DNA from: Hyaloraphidium curvatum
Lineage: Eukaryota; Monoblepharomycota; Hyaloraphidiomycetes; Hyaloraphidiales; Hyaloraphidiaceae
DNA: 64,000 nucleotides
Assembly (NCBI GenBank): GCA_025558095.1
Contig: JAIVFI010000027.1
Coordinates: 496,001-560,000 of the forward strand
Reading direction: 5' to 3'
Shown here one piece after another: positions 5,723 through 34,416 of the stretch; position 1 is the stretch's first letter; each line of letters begins with the position of its first letter. The notes beneath the pieces were generated by a model. The model was not told where the DNA came from. It did no database searches and was given only the letters and a program-made list of their open reading frames with translations. Made by a program: the position numbers and the translations under genes.

Positions 5723-5924
5723 GTTCGCGGCTGGGAAGCAGGGCAGCGCGCGTGGAGCGGGGATTGGGACAGGCGGAGGAACGAGCGGTGGAGCGCGACA
5801 ATCGGCACAGCCCGAAGTTGTTGCGGACACTCCGGTGCCGTTGCGAGATGGACCAACAGATCGCGCAGGATTCCCTAGATGGTTACCATCGTGTTGGCCA
5901 GCGGCGATTTGCCGCGCGCCGGTA

Positions 5925-6001
5925 CGTTCCTCGGTCCGATATCAGCCTCCGTGCCCGCGGCAGCGCCGCTTTCCGGCCCGTGGCTTCATAGTCGCAGAAC
6001 G
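5925..6001 (-). promoter_or_regulatory. Candidate SECIS element (type II-like)
   Basis: On the minus strand, about 64 nt after the stop codon of the PRXL2-like gene, the RNA would read ATGA (5989-5986), a 13-nt strand, AAA (5972-5970), a perfect 5-bp ministem (5969-5965 with 5961-5957), a returning 13-nt strand and GA (5943-5942). The base next to the quartet starts a clean 4-bp helix (5985-5982 with 5947-5944); the rest of stem II has about five further pairs with mismatches. A basal helix CGTTC/GAACG (6001-5997 with 5929-5925) closes the structure. Quartet, AAR bulge at the expected distance and ministem match the eukaryotic SECIS plan; stem II is imperfect. Seen by eye, not folded computationally. 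Confidence 0.55.
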
Positions 6002-6052
6002 CGCCTCGCAGCGCGACTCCTCATCCGCCCGCCTGCTCATACCAGTATGTCC

Positions 6053-6832
6053 TCATGAGGACGCCGCAATCCTCTGCAGCGTCGGCAGCACCTCGGCCTC
6101 GTAGGGCGCAAAGTCGCCGAAGATCTTCTCGAGGTACTGGTACTCGATCTTCTCGGGCTTGTTGCCGACGATGACTGTGCCGCCCATGACGTAGCCCTCG
6201 CCGATCATGTTGCCCTCGACGGCCTTAAAGGCCGCCTCGAGGTGGGCCTTGACGCCCTCGTCCTCGAGGTCCTCCTTGGTGCCCCGGTGGATCTCGCCGC
6301 CGCCGACGAAGCGATAGAAGATCTTGTCCTGGTCGAGGAAGAGCTCCAGGGGCCTTCGCGAGGACGGCAAGCGTCGATTAACACGCGAGTCCGTGTGGGG
6401 CAAGCCGCGGAGGGGGGACCCACCAGTACTTCTCCTTGAACTCCTCGGCACCGAGCTCCTCCTTAAGCACGGCGACGAGCCGGAAACCGAGTTTCTCGAT
6501 CTCCTCCTTATGGGAGGCCTGTCCGACGGAGTCAAGATAAGGCCCTGGACTGTCCCCCGGGCGGCCGCCCCGACACCCACGACCATTTTGGCCTCCTCCC
6601 GACAGAACCATCAGCCTGAATATCCGTGACGACGAAGAGCGGGCGAGAACCGGGATTGGCACGGCGCGCCGCGCCGCAGGTCCGGAAACCGCTCACCGGG
6701 TCGGCGAATCACGAGGACGTATGCCGGCTTGTCCTTCCAGAGCTCCTTCGCGGGGAACTCGACCTTGTCATCGCGGCCGAAGAAGTCAACCAGCGGCGAG
6801 GCGCCGAGCTCCTCGACCGTGATGGGCGCCAT
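6053..6832 (-). CDS. PRXL2/SelU-type peroxiredoxin-like protein, probable selenoprotein
   Basis: Exons 6832-6697, 6615-6581, 6518-6424 and 6353-6053 give 188 residues if the TGA at 6613-6611 is read as selenocysteine. Intron 1 (81 nt, GTGAGC...TTCAG) joins YVLVIRRPG to TGA-Trp-Phe-Cys-Arg-Glu-Glu, i.e. RRPG-U-x-x-C-REE, exactly where SelU/FAM213 (PRXL2) proteins have their redox CxxC or UxxC. Downstream EKLGFRLVAV, LFLDQDKIFYRF and YVMGGTVIVG follow the same family's thioredoxin-like fold. These proteins are AhpC/TSA-like thiol antioxidants. No other acceptor removes the TGA while keeping Trp-Phe-Cys, and the frame is open on both sides. Other splice phases agree. The alternative is a single nonsense change in an otherwise intact gene. 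Confidence 0.78.
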
Positions 6833-7010: not shown

Positions 7011-8341
7011 ATGGCTCCAAACGACCTCGTCGTCCCCTACTCGACCCTCCTCCCCTTCGTCGGCTCCATCTTCCGCTCCGCCGGCTGCTCCGAAGCCGAG
7101 AGCGAGCGCATCTCGCGGTACCTCATCTCGGCCAACCTCACCGGCCACGACTCGCACGGCATCATCCGCGTGCCGCGCTACGTCTCGAGCCTCAAGATGG
7201 GCATGGTGCAGAAGGACCAGCAGCTCACGGTGATCAGCGAGGGCCCGTCGCACGCGATGGTCAGCGGGAACTACGGGTTCGGGCAGACGGTGGCGCCGCT
7301 GGCGGTGGAGATGGGGATCAAAAAGGCCAAGGAGACGGGGATGGCGATCGTCGGGCTCAGGGAGGCGGGGCACGTGGGAAGGGTGGGGGACTGGGGCGAG
7401 ATGGCGGCCGAGCAGGGGCTGGTCAGCATCCATTTTGTCAACGTCGGCAAGGCCGAGGTGGGTTGCTTCGGTGCGGGGCCCCAAAGCGAGCCTGATCACT
7501 TTCATTCTTGGCGGTTCGTCCACCACGCTGGTGATCACCCCATTCAGCTCGTCGCGCCATTTGGGGGCACCTCCAAGCGCTTCTCCACAAACCCCTTCTG
7601 CGTTTGCGTGCCGCAGCCCGACGGGCGTCCGCCGCTGCTGCTGGACTACGCGACGTCGACCGTGGCCGAGGGCAAGATCCTTGTGGCCAGCAACGGTGGC
7701 AAGCCGGTTCCTGCGACGTCCATGATCACCAAGGACGGCCAGTACTCTGGCGACCCCGAGGTGCTCTGTGGGTAATCCGGCTGCTGTGTGTTGGATGTTG
7801 CTGACAAACACTCCAGACGGACCCCTCACGCCGGGCGGCCCGCGCAACCCCATGAACGGCACGGGCAGCATGACCGCCTTTGGCGAGCACAAGGGCTCCG
7901 CGCTGGCCTTCATGTGCGACGTCCTCGCGGGGTGCTTCATCGGCTCGCCGACCTCGGGGCCCGTGCCGCCGCCGTCGACCTTTGGTGGGCTCTCCCGATT
8001 GCCGGCGCACGGCGATCCCTGACCCCCTTTCGGCGACAGACAAGGCCGCGCCGTACCGCAGCTCATACTGCAACGGCATGCTCTCGATCTACGTCGACCC
8101 CGCGCGGATCGGCGCGCCGGCCGAGTTCGCGGCCAAGGCGGCCGATTTCGCGGAATACGTGCGCGCCTCCGAGCCCGCGGCGCCGTCGGTCAACCCCTCG
8201 CAACGGGTGCTGTGCCCCGGGGATGCCGAAGCCGAGACGAGAGCAAAGAGGATGAAGGAGGGGGTGCCGGTGCCCAAGGAGGTTTGGGATGGGCTGGTGA
8301 GCGCGGCGAAAGAGGTGGGAGCGGAGGTGCCGAGCCTTTGA
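7011..8341 (+). CDS. Malate/L-lactate dehydrogenase family (Ldh_2) oxidoreductase
   Basis: Four exons (7011-7457, 7548-7767, 7817-7984, 8040-8341) give 378 residues, close to the usual length of this NAD(P)-dependent family. The active-site motif GHDSHGIIRVPRY is at about residue 45; NYGFGQTVAPLAVEMG, LREAGHVGRVGDWGEMAAEQ, STNPFCVCVPQ and GGPRNPMNGTGSMTAFGEHK follow in family order. Members reduce 2-oxo acids to 2-hydroxy acids (malate, sulfolactate, ureidoglycolate, delta-1-piperideine-2-carboxylate); the substrate cannot be decided. Intron 1 is 90 nt and open in frame, so an unspliced reading exists, but its removal restores GKAE-LVAPFGG. No signal peptide, so probably cytosolic. Confidence 0.9.
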
Positions 8342-28545: not shown

Positions 28546-30094
28546 ATGGACGCCATACTACGCGGCGTCAGGGTCATCGAAATCGCCGGCATCGGGGTGG
28601 GTCGTCCTCCCTGTTGGAAGGTCCCGGAGCGCTGACTTGCTGCTGTGCCAGCCCGGCCCGTTCTGCGGCATGGTGCTCGCGGACTGTCGGTCCGCTGCCC
28701 GCCTCCCTTCCGTACCTGCCTGACGACCTCCCCCACCTTCGCAGACGGCGCCGACGTCGTCCGCGTCGAGCGCCTCGTCGGCTACGACGCCCGGCCCAAC
28801 ATGCAGCGCGGCAAGCGGTCCGTCCAGGTGGACCTCAAGTCGCCGCGGGGGGTCGAGCTGGTCCTCCGGATGTGCGAGAGGGCGGACGTGATACTGGAGC
28901 CGTATAGGCCGGGAGTGATGGAGAAGCTCGGGCTGGGGCCGGAGGTGGTGATGAAGCGGAACCCCAAGATCATCTACGCGAGGATGACGGGCTTCGGGCA
29001 GGAGGCGAGTCCCCGTTTCCCGTTGCCGAGCCGTCCCCTCACCCACGCGACGAACAGGGCAAGTACGCCAACATGGCCGGCCACGACATGAACTACGTCG
29101 CCACCTCGGGCCTCCTCTCGGTCCTCGGCCACCCCTCGGGGCCGCCGTCGACCTCGCTCAACCTCATCGGCGATTTCGCGGGCGGCGGGCTGATGATGGC
29201 CTTCGGGATCACCATGGCGCTGTTCGAGCGGGACAACAGGAAGACGGGGAGCGGGAAGGGCCAGGTCATTGATTGTGCCATGTGCGACGGTGCGGCGGTG
29301 GGTAACTCTCGGACCCGGCGGGCACGGTGTGAAGCTCACCGCGCGTTTCGAGCAGTACGTCGCCACGGTCGTGTACCAGATGCGGTACAACGGGCAGTGG
29401 GGCCCGCGGGGGACAAACTTCCTGGACTTCGGCCCGCCGTGGAAGTGAGCCCCTGCCCCGTCCCAGCAACGCGCGCTGATGCATTGCCCCCCGCTCCACG
29501 CCAGTCAAACGTACGAAACCGCCGACGGCAAATGGATGTCCGTCCAGGCCCTCGAGCCGCAGTTCTACGCCGAGCTGCTCCGCCTGCTCGGCCTCCCCGA
29601 CTCGATGCGCGCCACGCAGAACCACCGCCCCTCCTGGCCCGAGACCAAGCGGCGTATCACCGGTGCTTTCTTGTTGAAAACGCGGGACGAGTGGGAGAGG
29701 GTGTTCCTGGGGAAGGACGCGTGCTGCGTGCCCGTGTTTGGGCTGGAGGAGGTGCTGCCCATCAGGGGGGCCAACGGCCGGGACACGGAAATGGCGACGC
29801 ATGCGGCGGAGAGGGGGTTGCTGGGGAAGAGGGAGGGGACGGACGGGAGCCAGCCTGGGCACGTGGGTCGCCGTCGTTTGCGGGCTGCCGATCGGGAGGC
29901 TGACGGTGCCGTCCCTTCCCTTGCAGTGGGAACCCCGTGCGGCGCCGAGGTTCTCCCGGTCGCAGCACATGCCCATCCGGAGCGCGCCGCCGACGGGGGC
30001 GCACACGCGGGAGGTGCTCGGGGAATGGCTCGGGATGGGCGAGGGCGAGGTCGGGGAGCTGCTGGGGAGCAAGGTGGTGGCGGCGCGGTTGTAA
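28546..30094 (+). CDS. CaiB/BaiF family III CoA-transferase, AMACR-type, copy A
   Basis: Seven exons (28546-28596, 28652-28685, 28745-29004, 29058-29297, 29356-29444, 29505-29862, 29927-30094) give 399 residues. Family motifs: RVIEIAGIGPGPFCGMVLAD, GADVVRVER, RGKRSVQVDLKS, PGVMEKLGLGPE, YARMTGFGQ, GKYANMAGHDMNYVA (with the catalytic Asp region) and GEVGELLGSKVV at the C-terminus. Such enzymes epimerise 2-methylacyl-CoA or transfer CoA, in peroxisome or mitochondrion. Intron 3 needs a GC donor (GAG|GCGAGT), while the same intron of copy B has GT. The copy on the minus strand at 32863-34416 has the same seven-exon layout with identical exon lengths. Confidence 0.9.
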
Positions 30095-32862: not shown

Positions 32863-34416
32863 CTACAACCTCGCCGCGAGCACCTTGCTCCCCAGCAGCT
32901 CCCCGACCTCGCCCTCGCCCATCCCCAGCCACTCCCGCAGCACCTCGCGCGTGTGCGCCCCCGTCGGCGGCGCGCTGCGGATGGGCATGTGCTGCGACCG
33001 CGAGAACCTCGGCGCCGCACGGGGCTCCCACTGCGCGAACGGCGCGGCGACGGTCAGCCCTCAATAGATCGGCCGGCATGCAGCGGTGTACCCACGTGGC
33101 TGGGCTGGCTCCCGTCGGTGCCCTCCCTCTTGCCGAGCATCTGCCTCTCCGCCGCGTGCGTGGCCAGGTCCATGTCCCGCCCGTTCTTGCCCCTGACGGG
33201 GAGCACCTCCTCCAGCGAAAAGATCGGCACCGTGCACGCGTCCTTCCCCAGGAAAATCCGCTCCCACTCGTCCCGGGTCTTGCCGAGGAACGCGCCGGCG
33301 ATCCTGCGCCTGGTCTCGGGCCAGCTCGCGCGGTCGTTCTGCGCCGCCCGCATGGATTCGGGGAGGCCGAGCAGGCGGAGCAGCTCGGCGTAGAACTGCG
33401 GCTCGATGGCCTGCACGGACATGTACCGGCCGTCGGCGGTCTCGTACGATTGGCTGGGAGAAGGTGTCGGGATCGGATCGATGCAGGGCGGGCCGCCGCG
33501 GGCCTACCTGTAGGGCGCGCCGTAGTCGAGCACGTTGGTCCCCCGCTCCCCCCAGAGGCCGTTGTAGCGGGACTGGTAGAGGAAGGTGGCCACGTACTGT
33601 CCGGAAGGAGGCGTCAATCCGCGGCCTGGAAGGTATGGGCGGTCGGAAACCCACCGCGGCACCGTCGCACATGGCGCAGTCGATCACCTGCCCCTTCCCG
33701 CTCCCGTTCTTCCGGTTATCCCGCTCGAACAGCGCCATGGCGATGCCGAAGGCCAGCATGAGGCCGCCGCCGGCAAAGTCGCCGACCAGGTTGAGCGAGG
33801 TCGCCGGGGGGCCGGCGGGGTGGCCCAGGGCCGAGAGGAGGCCCGAGGTGGCGACGTAGTTCATGTCGTGGCCGGCCATGTTGGCGTACTTGCCCTGTGC
33901 GAAGCCCAGGATCAGCAGCGACAAGGGGGGGGGCTCGAGGACCGACCTCCTGCCCGAAGCCCGTCATCCTCGCGTAGATGATCTTGGGATTCCGCTTCAT
34001 CACCACCTCGGGCCCCAACCCGAGCTTCTCCATGACCCCCGGCCTGTACGGCTCCATGATCACGTCCGCCTTCTCGCACATCTGCAGGACCAGCTCGACC
34101 CCCCGTAACGACTTGAGGTCCACCTGGACGGACCGCTTGCCCCGCTGCAGGTTGGGCCGGGCGTCGAACCCGGTCAGGCGCTCGACGCGCACGACGTCGG
34201 CGCCGTCTGGAAGGGGCGATGGGGGGTCAGCTTGATCCGACGGGGATCGCGGGAGGACGACCAACAGTCGGCGAGCACCATCCCGCAGAACGGCCCGGGC
34301 TACCCAGAAGAAACAGACGATGAGCAAGATCATTCCTTCGAGATGACGGGGAGGAGCCGGCCCACCCCGATGCCCGCGATTTCAATGACCCTGACACCTC
34401 GCAGGATCGCGTCCAT
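32863..34416 (-). CDS. CaiB/BaiF family III CoA-transferase, AMACR-type, copy B
   Basis: Seven exons (34416-34366, 34299-34266, 34206-33947, 33894-33655, 33596-33508, 33453-33096, 33030-32863), each exactly the length of its counterpart in copy A, give 399 residues. Protein motifs are nearly the same (MDAILRGVRVIEIAGIG, RGKRSVQVDLKS, GKYANMAGHDMNYVATSGLL). Introns differ in sequence and slightly in length, so the duplication is not very recent. The two copies are inverted relative to each other with the complex I subunit and acyltransferase genes between them. Same predicted activity as copy A. Intron 3 here begins GTCGGT. Confidence 0.9.

Follow-up and report, generated by a model that had tools for sequence, protein, structure and literature searches.

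The analysis of a 64,000-nucleotide stretch of contig C27 of Hyaloraphidium curvatum (hereafter, the window; the whole assembly comprises 31.9 Mb in 55 contigs) leads us to propose, with high confidence, that one of its genes, SelU1, encodes a PRXL2/SelU-type thioredoxin-fold oxidoreductase in which selenocysteine (Sec) would serve as catalytic residue through SECIS-directed recoding of UGA. SelU1 is one of seven genes of this genome (SelU1, SelU2, SPS2, deiodinase-like, SelW-like, SelH, and SelK) that carry both a TGA at a known Sec site and a downstream SECIS-type element, the sites in question being those that we take to be the established Sec positions of the respective families. Taken together, the seven TGA codons and a SelU1 hairpin whose criterion is reached in only 2 of 300 shuffled sequences amount to more than chance would be expected to produce.

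The SelU1 gene and its in-frame TGA

On the minus strand of the window, four predicted exons with consistent phases (table 1) join into a single 567-base reading, the sole internal stop of which is the TGA at 6613-6611 and which closes on its own terminal TGA (6055-6053). The context of the internal codon, RRPG-TGA-WFCREEA, is an instance of the SelU/PRXL2 redox motif RRPG(U/C)xxC, with Sec or Cys in first position, and this TGA occupies the established Cys/Sec site of the family. With a Cys typed at the TGA, the predicted protein matches the Pfam family AhpC-TSA_2 (PF13911; E 1.8e-14, 54.5 bits for a cut-off of 27). An earlier, sequence-only reading of this locus had placed an in-frame TGA at the Cys/Sec site of a SelU/PRXL2 gene, had described the rest of the gene as intact with consistent splice phases, and had guessed an early-branching fungus: The motif and the Pfam match bear out the first point, the 567-base reading with its single internal stop agrees with the second, and the NCBI taxonomy (Fungi, Monoblepharomycota) is in line with the third. 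Judging from the letters of the locus, SelU1 is probably spliced as drawn, and its product may display a peroxidase- or reductase-type activity. Next to SelU1 and divergent from it lies an ORF that reads as malate/L-lactate dehydrogenase-like (7011-7775, plus strand), the two starts being 179 bases apart.

Table 1. Features of the SelU1 locus, given as positions in the window.
Feature	Position	Strand	Basis and remarks
SelU1 exon 1	6697..6832	-	Start codon 6832-6830, end ...VIRRP-G; sequence reading, 41% identity with SelU2
SelU1 intron 1, 81 nt, GTGAGC..TTCAG, phase 1	6616..6696	-	Inferred from sequence
SelU1 exon 2, bearing the TGA as well as the motif of the resolving Cys, WFCREEAKMV	6581..6615	-	Sequence reading
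SelU1 in-frame TGA, proposed selenocysteine codon (RRPG-U-WFC)	6611..6613	-	Reading; position matches the SelU2 TGA
SelU1 intron 2, 62 nt, GTGGGT..ACAG	6519..6580	-	Sequence reading
SelU1 exon 3	6424..6518	-	Sequence reading
SelU1 intron 3, 70 nt, GTGGGT..GAAG	6354..6423	-	Sequence reading
SelU1 exon 4, terminal stop TGA 6055-6053	6053..6353	-	Sequence reading
SECIS-type hairpin of SelU1	5921..6005	-	Core scan, 2/300 shuffles, constrained fold; no match with Rfam or model R1
Intron of public model P0001, taken as an annotation artefact	6596..6712	-	Deposited model versus reading

According to the mechanism that we propose, Sec is probably inserted at the SelU1 TGA, where the UGA would be read by a tRNA-Sec(UCA) delivered by eEFSec, and where insertion would be licensed by the SECIS hairpin of the 3′UTR (~6005-5921) once bound by an SBP2-like protein. 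Sec itself would be built on its tRNA through the successive action of SerRS, PSTK, and SecS, with selenophosphate supplied by SPS2, whose own gene contains a TGA.

Selenocysteine machinery and further candidate selenoprotein genes

The sequence-only reading had called for a look at the Sec machinery of the genome, and every component of the animal-type system (tRNA-Sec, PSTK, SecS, SPS2, eEFSec, SBP2, and SECIS) turns out to have a candidate in the Hyaloraphidium genome. The tRNA-Sec (C14:445030-445115, anticodon TCA) scores 78.2 bits with RF01852 (cut-off 47), SecS (SepSecS) on C8 scores 287.7 bits with neighbours against TIGR03531 (cut-off 224.85), and SPS2/SelD on C2 scores 169.8 bits with neighbours against TIGR00476 (cut-off 125), a figure that becomes 200 bits with our own spliced model (Cys typed), in which the TGA stands in KG-U-GCK. 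The eEFSec locus (C1:404810-406025, record P0002) encodes the eukaryote-specific Pfam domains euk_SelB_III and eEFSec_4th (PF21131 and PF21208), both above cut-off. The PSTK and SBP2 candidates, which diverge from the animal-type system, are weaker than the preceding four. The PSTK-like protein (C2:720164-720465), in which the motifs DDNMYYSSMR and PLETCLERN can be read, matches the NCBIfam model TIGR03575 with an E of 2.5e-20, at 73 bits that fall far under the curated cut-off of 382. As for the SBP2 candidate, recognised by its L7Ae domain only, it consists of an SBP2-type L7Ae domain in two exons (C31:198377-198713; PF01248, 7.2e-9) with an E of 5.7e-5 against the typed human SBP2 domain.

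The best TIGR00475 match of the genome (C3:473603) reads as an organellar IF-2, and those at L012, L013, L014, L015, L016, L018, and L073-L076 look like other translation-type GTPases rather than eEFSec. Further L7Ae matches were found on C34, C21, C36, and C32, and the one on C10 reads as ribosomal eL8 and was not retained as SBP2.

A second SelU gene is informative with regard to the TGA of SelU1. SelU2 (C20), 41% identical to SelU1, reads RRPG-TGA-LLCREEA within a single uninterrupted exon and matches the family (PF13911, E 3e-16; structure 9us9, E 3.8e-19). The first redox position is thus TGA in SelU1 and SelU2 and Cys in a third copy, SelU3 (L032, C30:527668-528700, minus strand), which has a TGC in RRAG-CCLCREDA. 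Of all Rfam SECIS matches in the genome, the highest-scoring one (36.2 bits) follows SelU3, with its ATGA 46 nt past the likely stop of a gene model whose C-terminal exon junction is tentative, and might be either a fossil or a retained element. Rather than the random nonsense pattern contemplated in the sequence-only reading, we find a paralogue whose TGA coincides with that of SelU1, and the Sec sites of five other families are likewise occupied by a TGA. The deiodinase-like gene (SECIS match at C3:1123310) reads GSHS-U-PPF (PF00837, E 1.2e-23), and SelK (SECIS match at C3:598032) reads GGGGS-U-GR (PF10961, E 5.1e-9). The SelW-like gene (C41) reads GVK-U-G, hence without the Cys of CxxU, and its match to Rdx, at 21.6 bits, is slightly below the cut-off of 22.6. 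A Pfam search of the SelH protein (C22) gave no match, and its probable assignment comes from reading its CNS-U motif. The SelW-like, SelH, and SelK gene models are our own splice readings.

Among the relatives of the deiodinase-like protein, seven short unnamed proteins of 131-155 aa (P0123-P0129) were also encountered; six of them start downstream of the Sec-codon place, and in P0123 a start without a match lies immediately ahead of that place; these models look as though a TGA there had truncated them. Separately, a thioredoxin reductase tail pattern, G-C-U-G-TAA, was observed on the minus strand of C15 (697059-697073, GGTTGCTGAGGATAA), followed at a distance of about 140 nt on that strand by a SECIS-core pattern match (the two spanning 696899-697073). 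Genome-wide, this tail pattern gave 22 matches versus 15 in the control, and 10 of the 22 end in TGG, which is not a stop.

SECIS elements and alternative explanations of the TGA

The SelU1 hairpin starts 63 nt 3′ of the stop codon, with an ATGA from 5989, an apical AAA, and a 3′ TGA ending at 5942, and its constrained fold comprises a helix II of 8 pairs, irregular, and a helix I of 13 pairs. Our scan (TGA quartet, apical AA/CC, 3′ GA, single hairpin) retained one place each 3′ of SelU1, SelU2, and SPS2; in its stricter form, applied to both strands of the 64-kb window, it gave three matches, the strongest being the one located 63 nt after the SelU1 stop. In dinucleotide shuffles of the 600 nt that follow the stop, the stricter criterion was reached in 2/300 cases for SelU1, and likewise in 4/300 for SelU2 and 1/300 for SPS2. 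The SECIS search suggested in the sequence-only reading yielded this candidate, though the hairpin is not among the Rfam SECIS matches, nor is it recovered at E up to 10 by R1, a model built from six hand-aligned elements of this genome. R1 recovers its six source elements and, weakly, that of SelK (18.2 bits, E 0.081). As for the whole-genome search with RF00031 (SECIS_1; 133 of 229 candidates scored), it returned, at E up to 10, five matches of which one exceeds the cut-off, all five lying 3′ of genes that read as selenoprotein families (C30, C3:1123310, C3:598032, C41, and C22); it found five of the eight elements described here and missed those of SelU1, SelU2, and SPS2. Among 14 control genomes, matches were obtained in four and none exceeded the cut-off.

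By core and fold, all seven predicted selenoprotein genes have a SECIS-type element in their 3′UTR, the case of SelU1 being weaker. These seven elements and that of the Cys-containing SelU3 share ATGA-(A/C)G, an AAA 10-11 nt further on, and (T/C)GA; in constrained folds, helix II has 8-10 pairs in all eight and helix I has 7-15 pairs in seven, no helix I being obtained for SPS2. Helix II is less regular in SelU1 than in any other member of this set. Since MAFFT misaligned the raw elements, a hand-padded alignment of six of them was used instead. In this alignment, from which bulge letters were removed, 54 of the 54 helix II cells are paired, a value reached by none of 500 shuffles, and the covariation score is 1.015 versus 0.27 +/- 0.08 in shuffles (0/500 as high; at most 0.24 when slid); seven of nine helix II pairs show changes at both partners, a figure that 23 of 500 shuffles attain as well. 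Since the alignment was fitted by hand to this structure, these statistics are biased in its favour. The pattern YATGAMGN{9,10}BAAA has 135 matches in the genome versus 90 for its reversed control and is weak when used alone, because only 3 of the first 30 loci, those of SPS2, the deiodinase-like gene, and SelK, have an R1 E below 0.1. Elsewhere in the window, two very similar ORFs in inverted orientation (29073-29903, plus strand, and 33061-33924, minus strand; MAGHDMNYVATSGLL...) read as CoA-transferase-like duplicates, and near-identical background matches of the SECIS scan (28951 on the plus strand and 34000 on the minus strand) adjoin both.

The public annotation carries another reading of SelU1, in which the TGA is spliced out and a shorter ordinary protein results. 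The only protein found for this gene, the deposited model P0001 (DFJ74DRAFT_734466), indeed bypasses the TGA via an intron at 6712-6596 with acceptor TTCTGTCGGGAG. However, this intron deletes VIRRPG-U-WFCRE, i.e., the redox motif, so that both redox residues of RRPGxxxCRE would be lost, and its acceptor ends in GAG, compared with CAG in our intron 1, although our intron 3 ends in AAG. Moreover, the TGA held by SelU2 at the same position lies inside one exon, so that splice choice plays no part there, and the deposited deiodinase-like model, P0122, similarly skips the stretch around its TGA. We consider genuine splicing of the P0001 intron very unlikely and judge it to be an annotation artefact, the excisions in P0001 and P0122 fitting the usual misannotation of selenoprotein genes.

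A nonsense mutation or a sequencing error in a decaying, unrecoded SelU1 could be invoked on the grounds that TGA is one base from the Cys codons TGC and TGT and that SelU3 has TGC at this site. Yet the remaining frame is intact, the genome has Sec machinery along with SECIS-type elements, and decay, against which the sequence-only reading had already argued, is made unlikely by the presence in seven genes of a TGA exactly at known Sec sites; we accordingly regard this explanation as highly improbable. It appears extremely improbable that UGA codes for an amino acid throughout the genome: Such a reassignment would account for the TGA codons read through inside several genes, but SelU1, SelH, and the deiodinase-like gene terminate at TGA in the usual way, and the UCA-anticodon tRNA that was seen is, from its RF01852 match, tRNA-Sec. 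A last scenario grants Sec to the organism and supposes that SelU1 in particular is no longer recoded, its SECIS being in decay. Its irregular helix II, missed by R1, and the Cys of SelU3 despite a strong remaining SECIS would fit this scenario, which we nonetheless hold to be distinctly unlikely in view of the ATGA/AAA/TGA core, the 13 pairs of helix I, the scarcity of such hairpins in shuffles (2/300), and a coding frame that is intact except for the TGA.

Probable selenocysteine use in Hyaloraphidium and its fungal context

To our knowledge, most fungi are devoid of a selenocysteine system. The 2019 survey of Mariotti et al. reportedly found selenoproteins in nine early-branching fungi, with Gonapodya prolifera as the chytrid among them, and most fungal selenoproteins are said there to be without a consensus SECIS; as far as we know, Hyaloraphidium is not one of the nine. 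Like Hyaloraphidium, these are non-Dikarya endowed with Sec machinery and TGA-containing selenoprotein genes, but a consensus-type ATGA/AAA/GA element is found in seven of seven selenoprotein genes in Hyaloraphidium, in contrast to what is reported for most fungal ones. With the SelU/PRXL2 family, of which prostamide/prostaglandin F synthase (9us9) is a solved relative, SelU1 and SelU2 have the RRPGxxxCRE motif in common.

Recent papers mention nine Sec-using fungi and credit fungal selenocysteine to one 2019 survey (PMC10778597, PMC10386755, PMC11378755), and others, from 2021, state on the basis of U searches in annotated proteomes that fungi do not encode selenocysteine (PMC7988114, PMC8559351). 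In this regard, the annotated models of SelU1 and of the deiodinase-like gene excise the Sec codon, and a proteome search consequently misses such genes. Our literature search found no paper pairing Hyaloraphidium with selenocysteine or with selenoprotein, and the one paper that combines selenoprotein with Monoblephari- deals, judging from its title, with the mitochondrial genome of a mushroom.

With regard to descent, the joined Hyaloraphidium eEFSec shares 44-51% identity with the named animal proteins that figure in a list of 120 matches. Both Gonapodya prolifera and Gonapodya sp. JEL0774 possess an eEFSec as well. In an unrooted tree of 15 rows chosen from these 120 matches, without outgroup, Hyaloraphidium and two Gonapodya proteins are separated from animals and Opistho-2 with a support of 99/98, the Hyaloraphidium branch being long (1.36). 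Because of this long branch and of the missing outgroup, the tree may be called compatible with vertical inheritance, and is not proof of it.

If SECIS-directed recoding, our preferred reading, holds for SelU1 and the other genes, Hyaloraphidium can be rated as an addition to the known Sec-using fungi with an unusually full gene set. By a narrow preference, we lean toward the view that it has preserved, almost in full, an ancestral fungal selenoproteome of animal-like type, with at least seven genes and consensus-type SECIS elements; the set includes the deiodinase-like gene, SelK, SelH, the SelW-like gene, SelU1, and SelU2, and a thioredoxin reductase ending in GCUG may belong to it as well. 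Were this view correct, the fungal ancestor would have had a multi-gene, SECIS-directed Sec system, other fungi, if they have lost consensus SECIS elements, would have done so secondarily, and SelU3, which has a Cys codon yet keeps a strong SECIS, would represent an ongoing conversion from Sec to Cys. Uniting Sec machinery, several selenoprotein families, and consensus-type SECIS elements in a single fungal genome, Hyaloraphidium may thus offer a monoblepharomycete case in which to test the function of fungal SECIS elements and the composition of the ancestral fungal selenoproteome.
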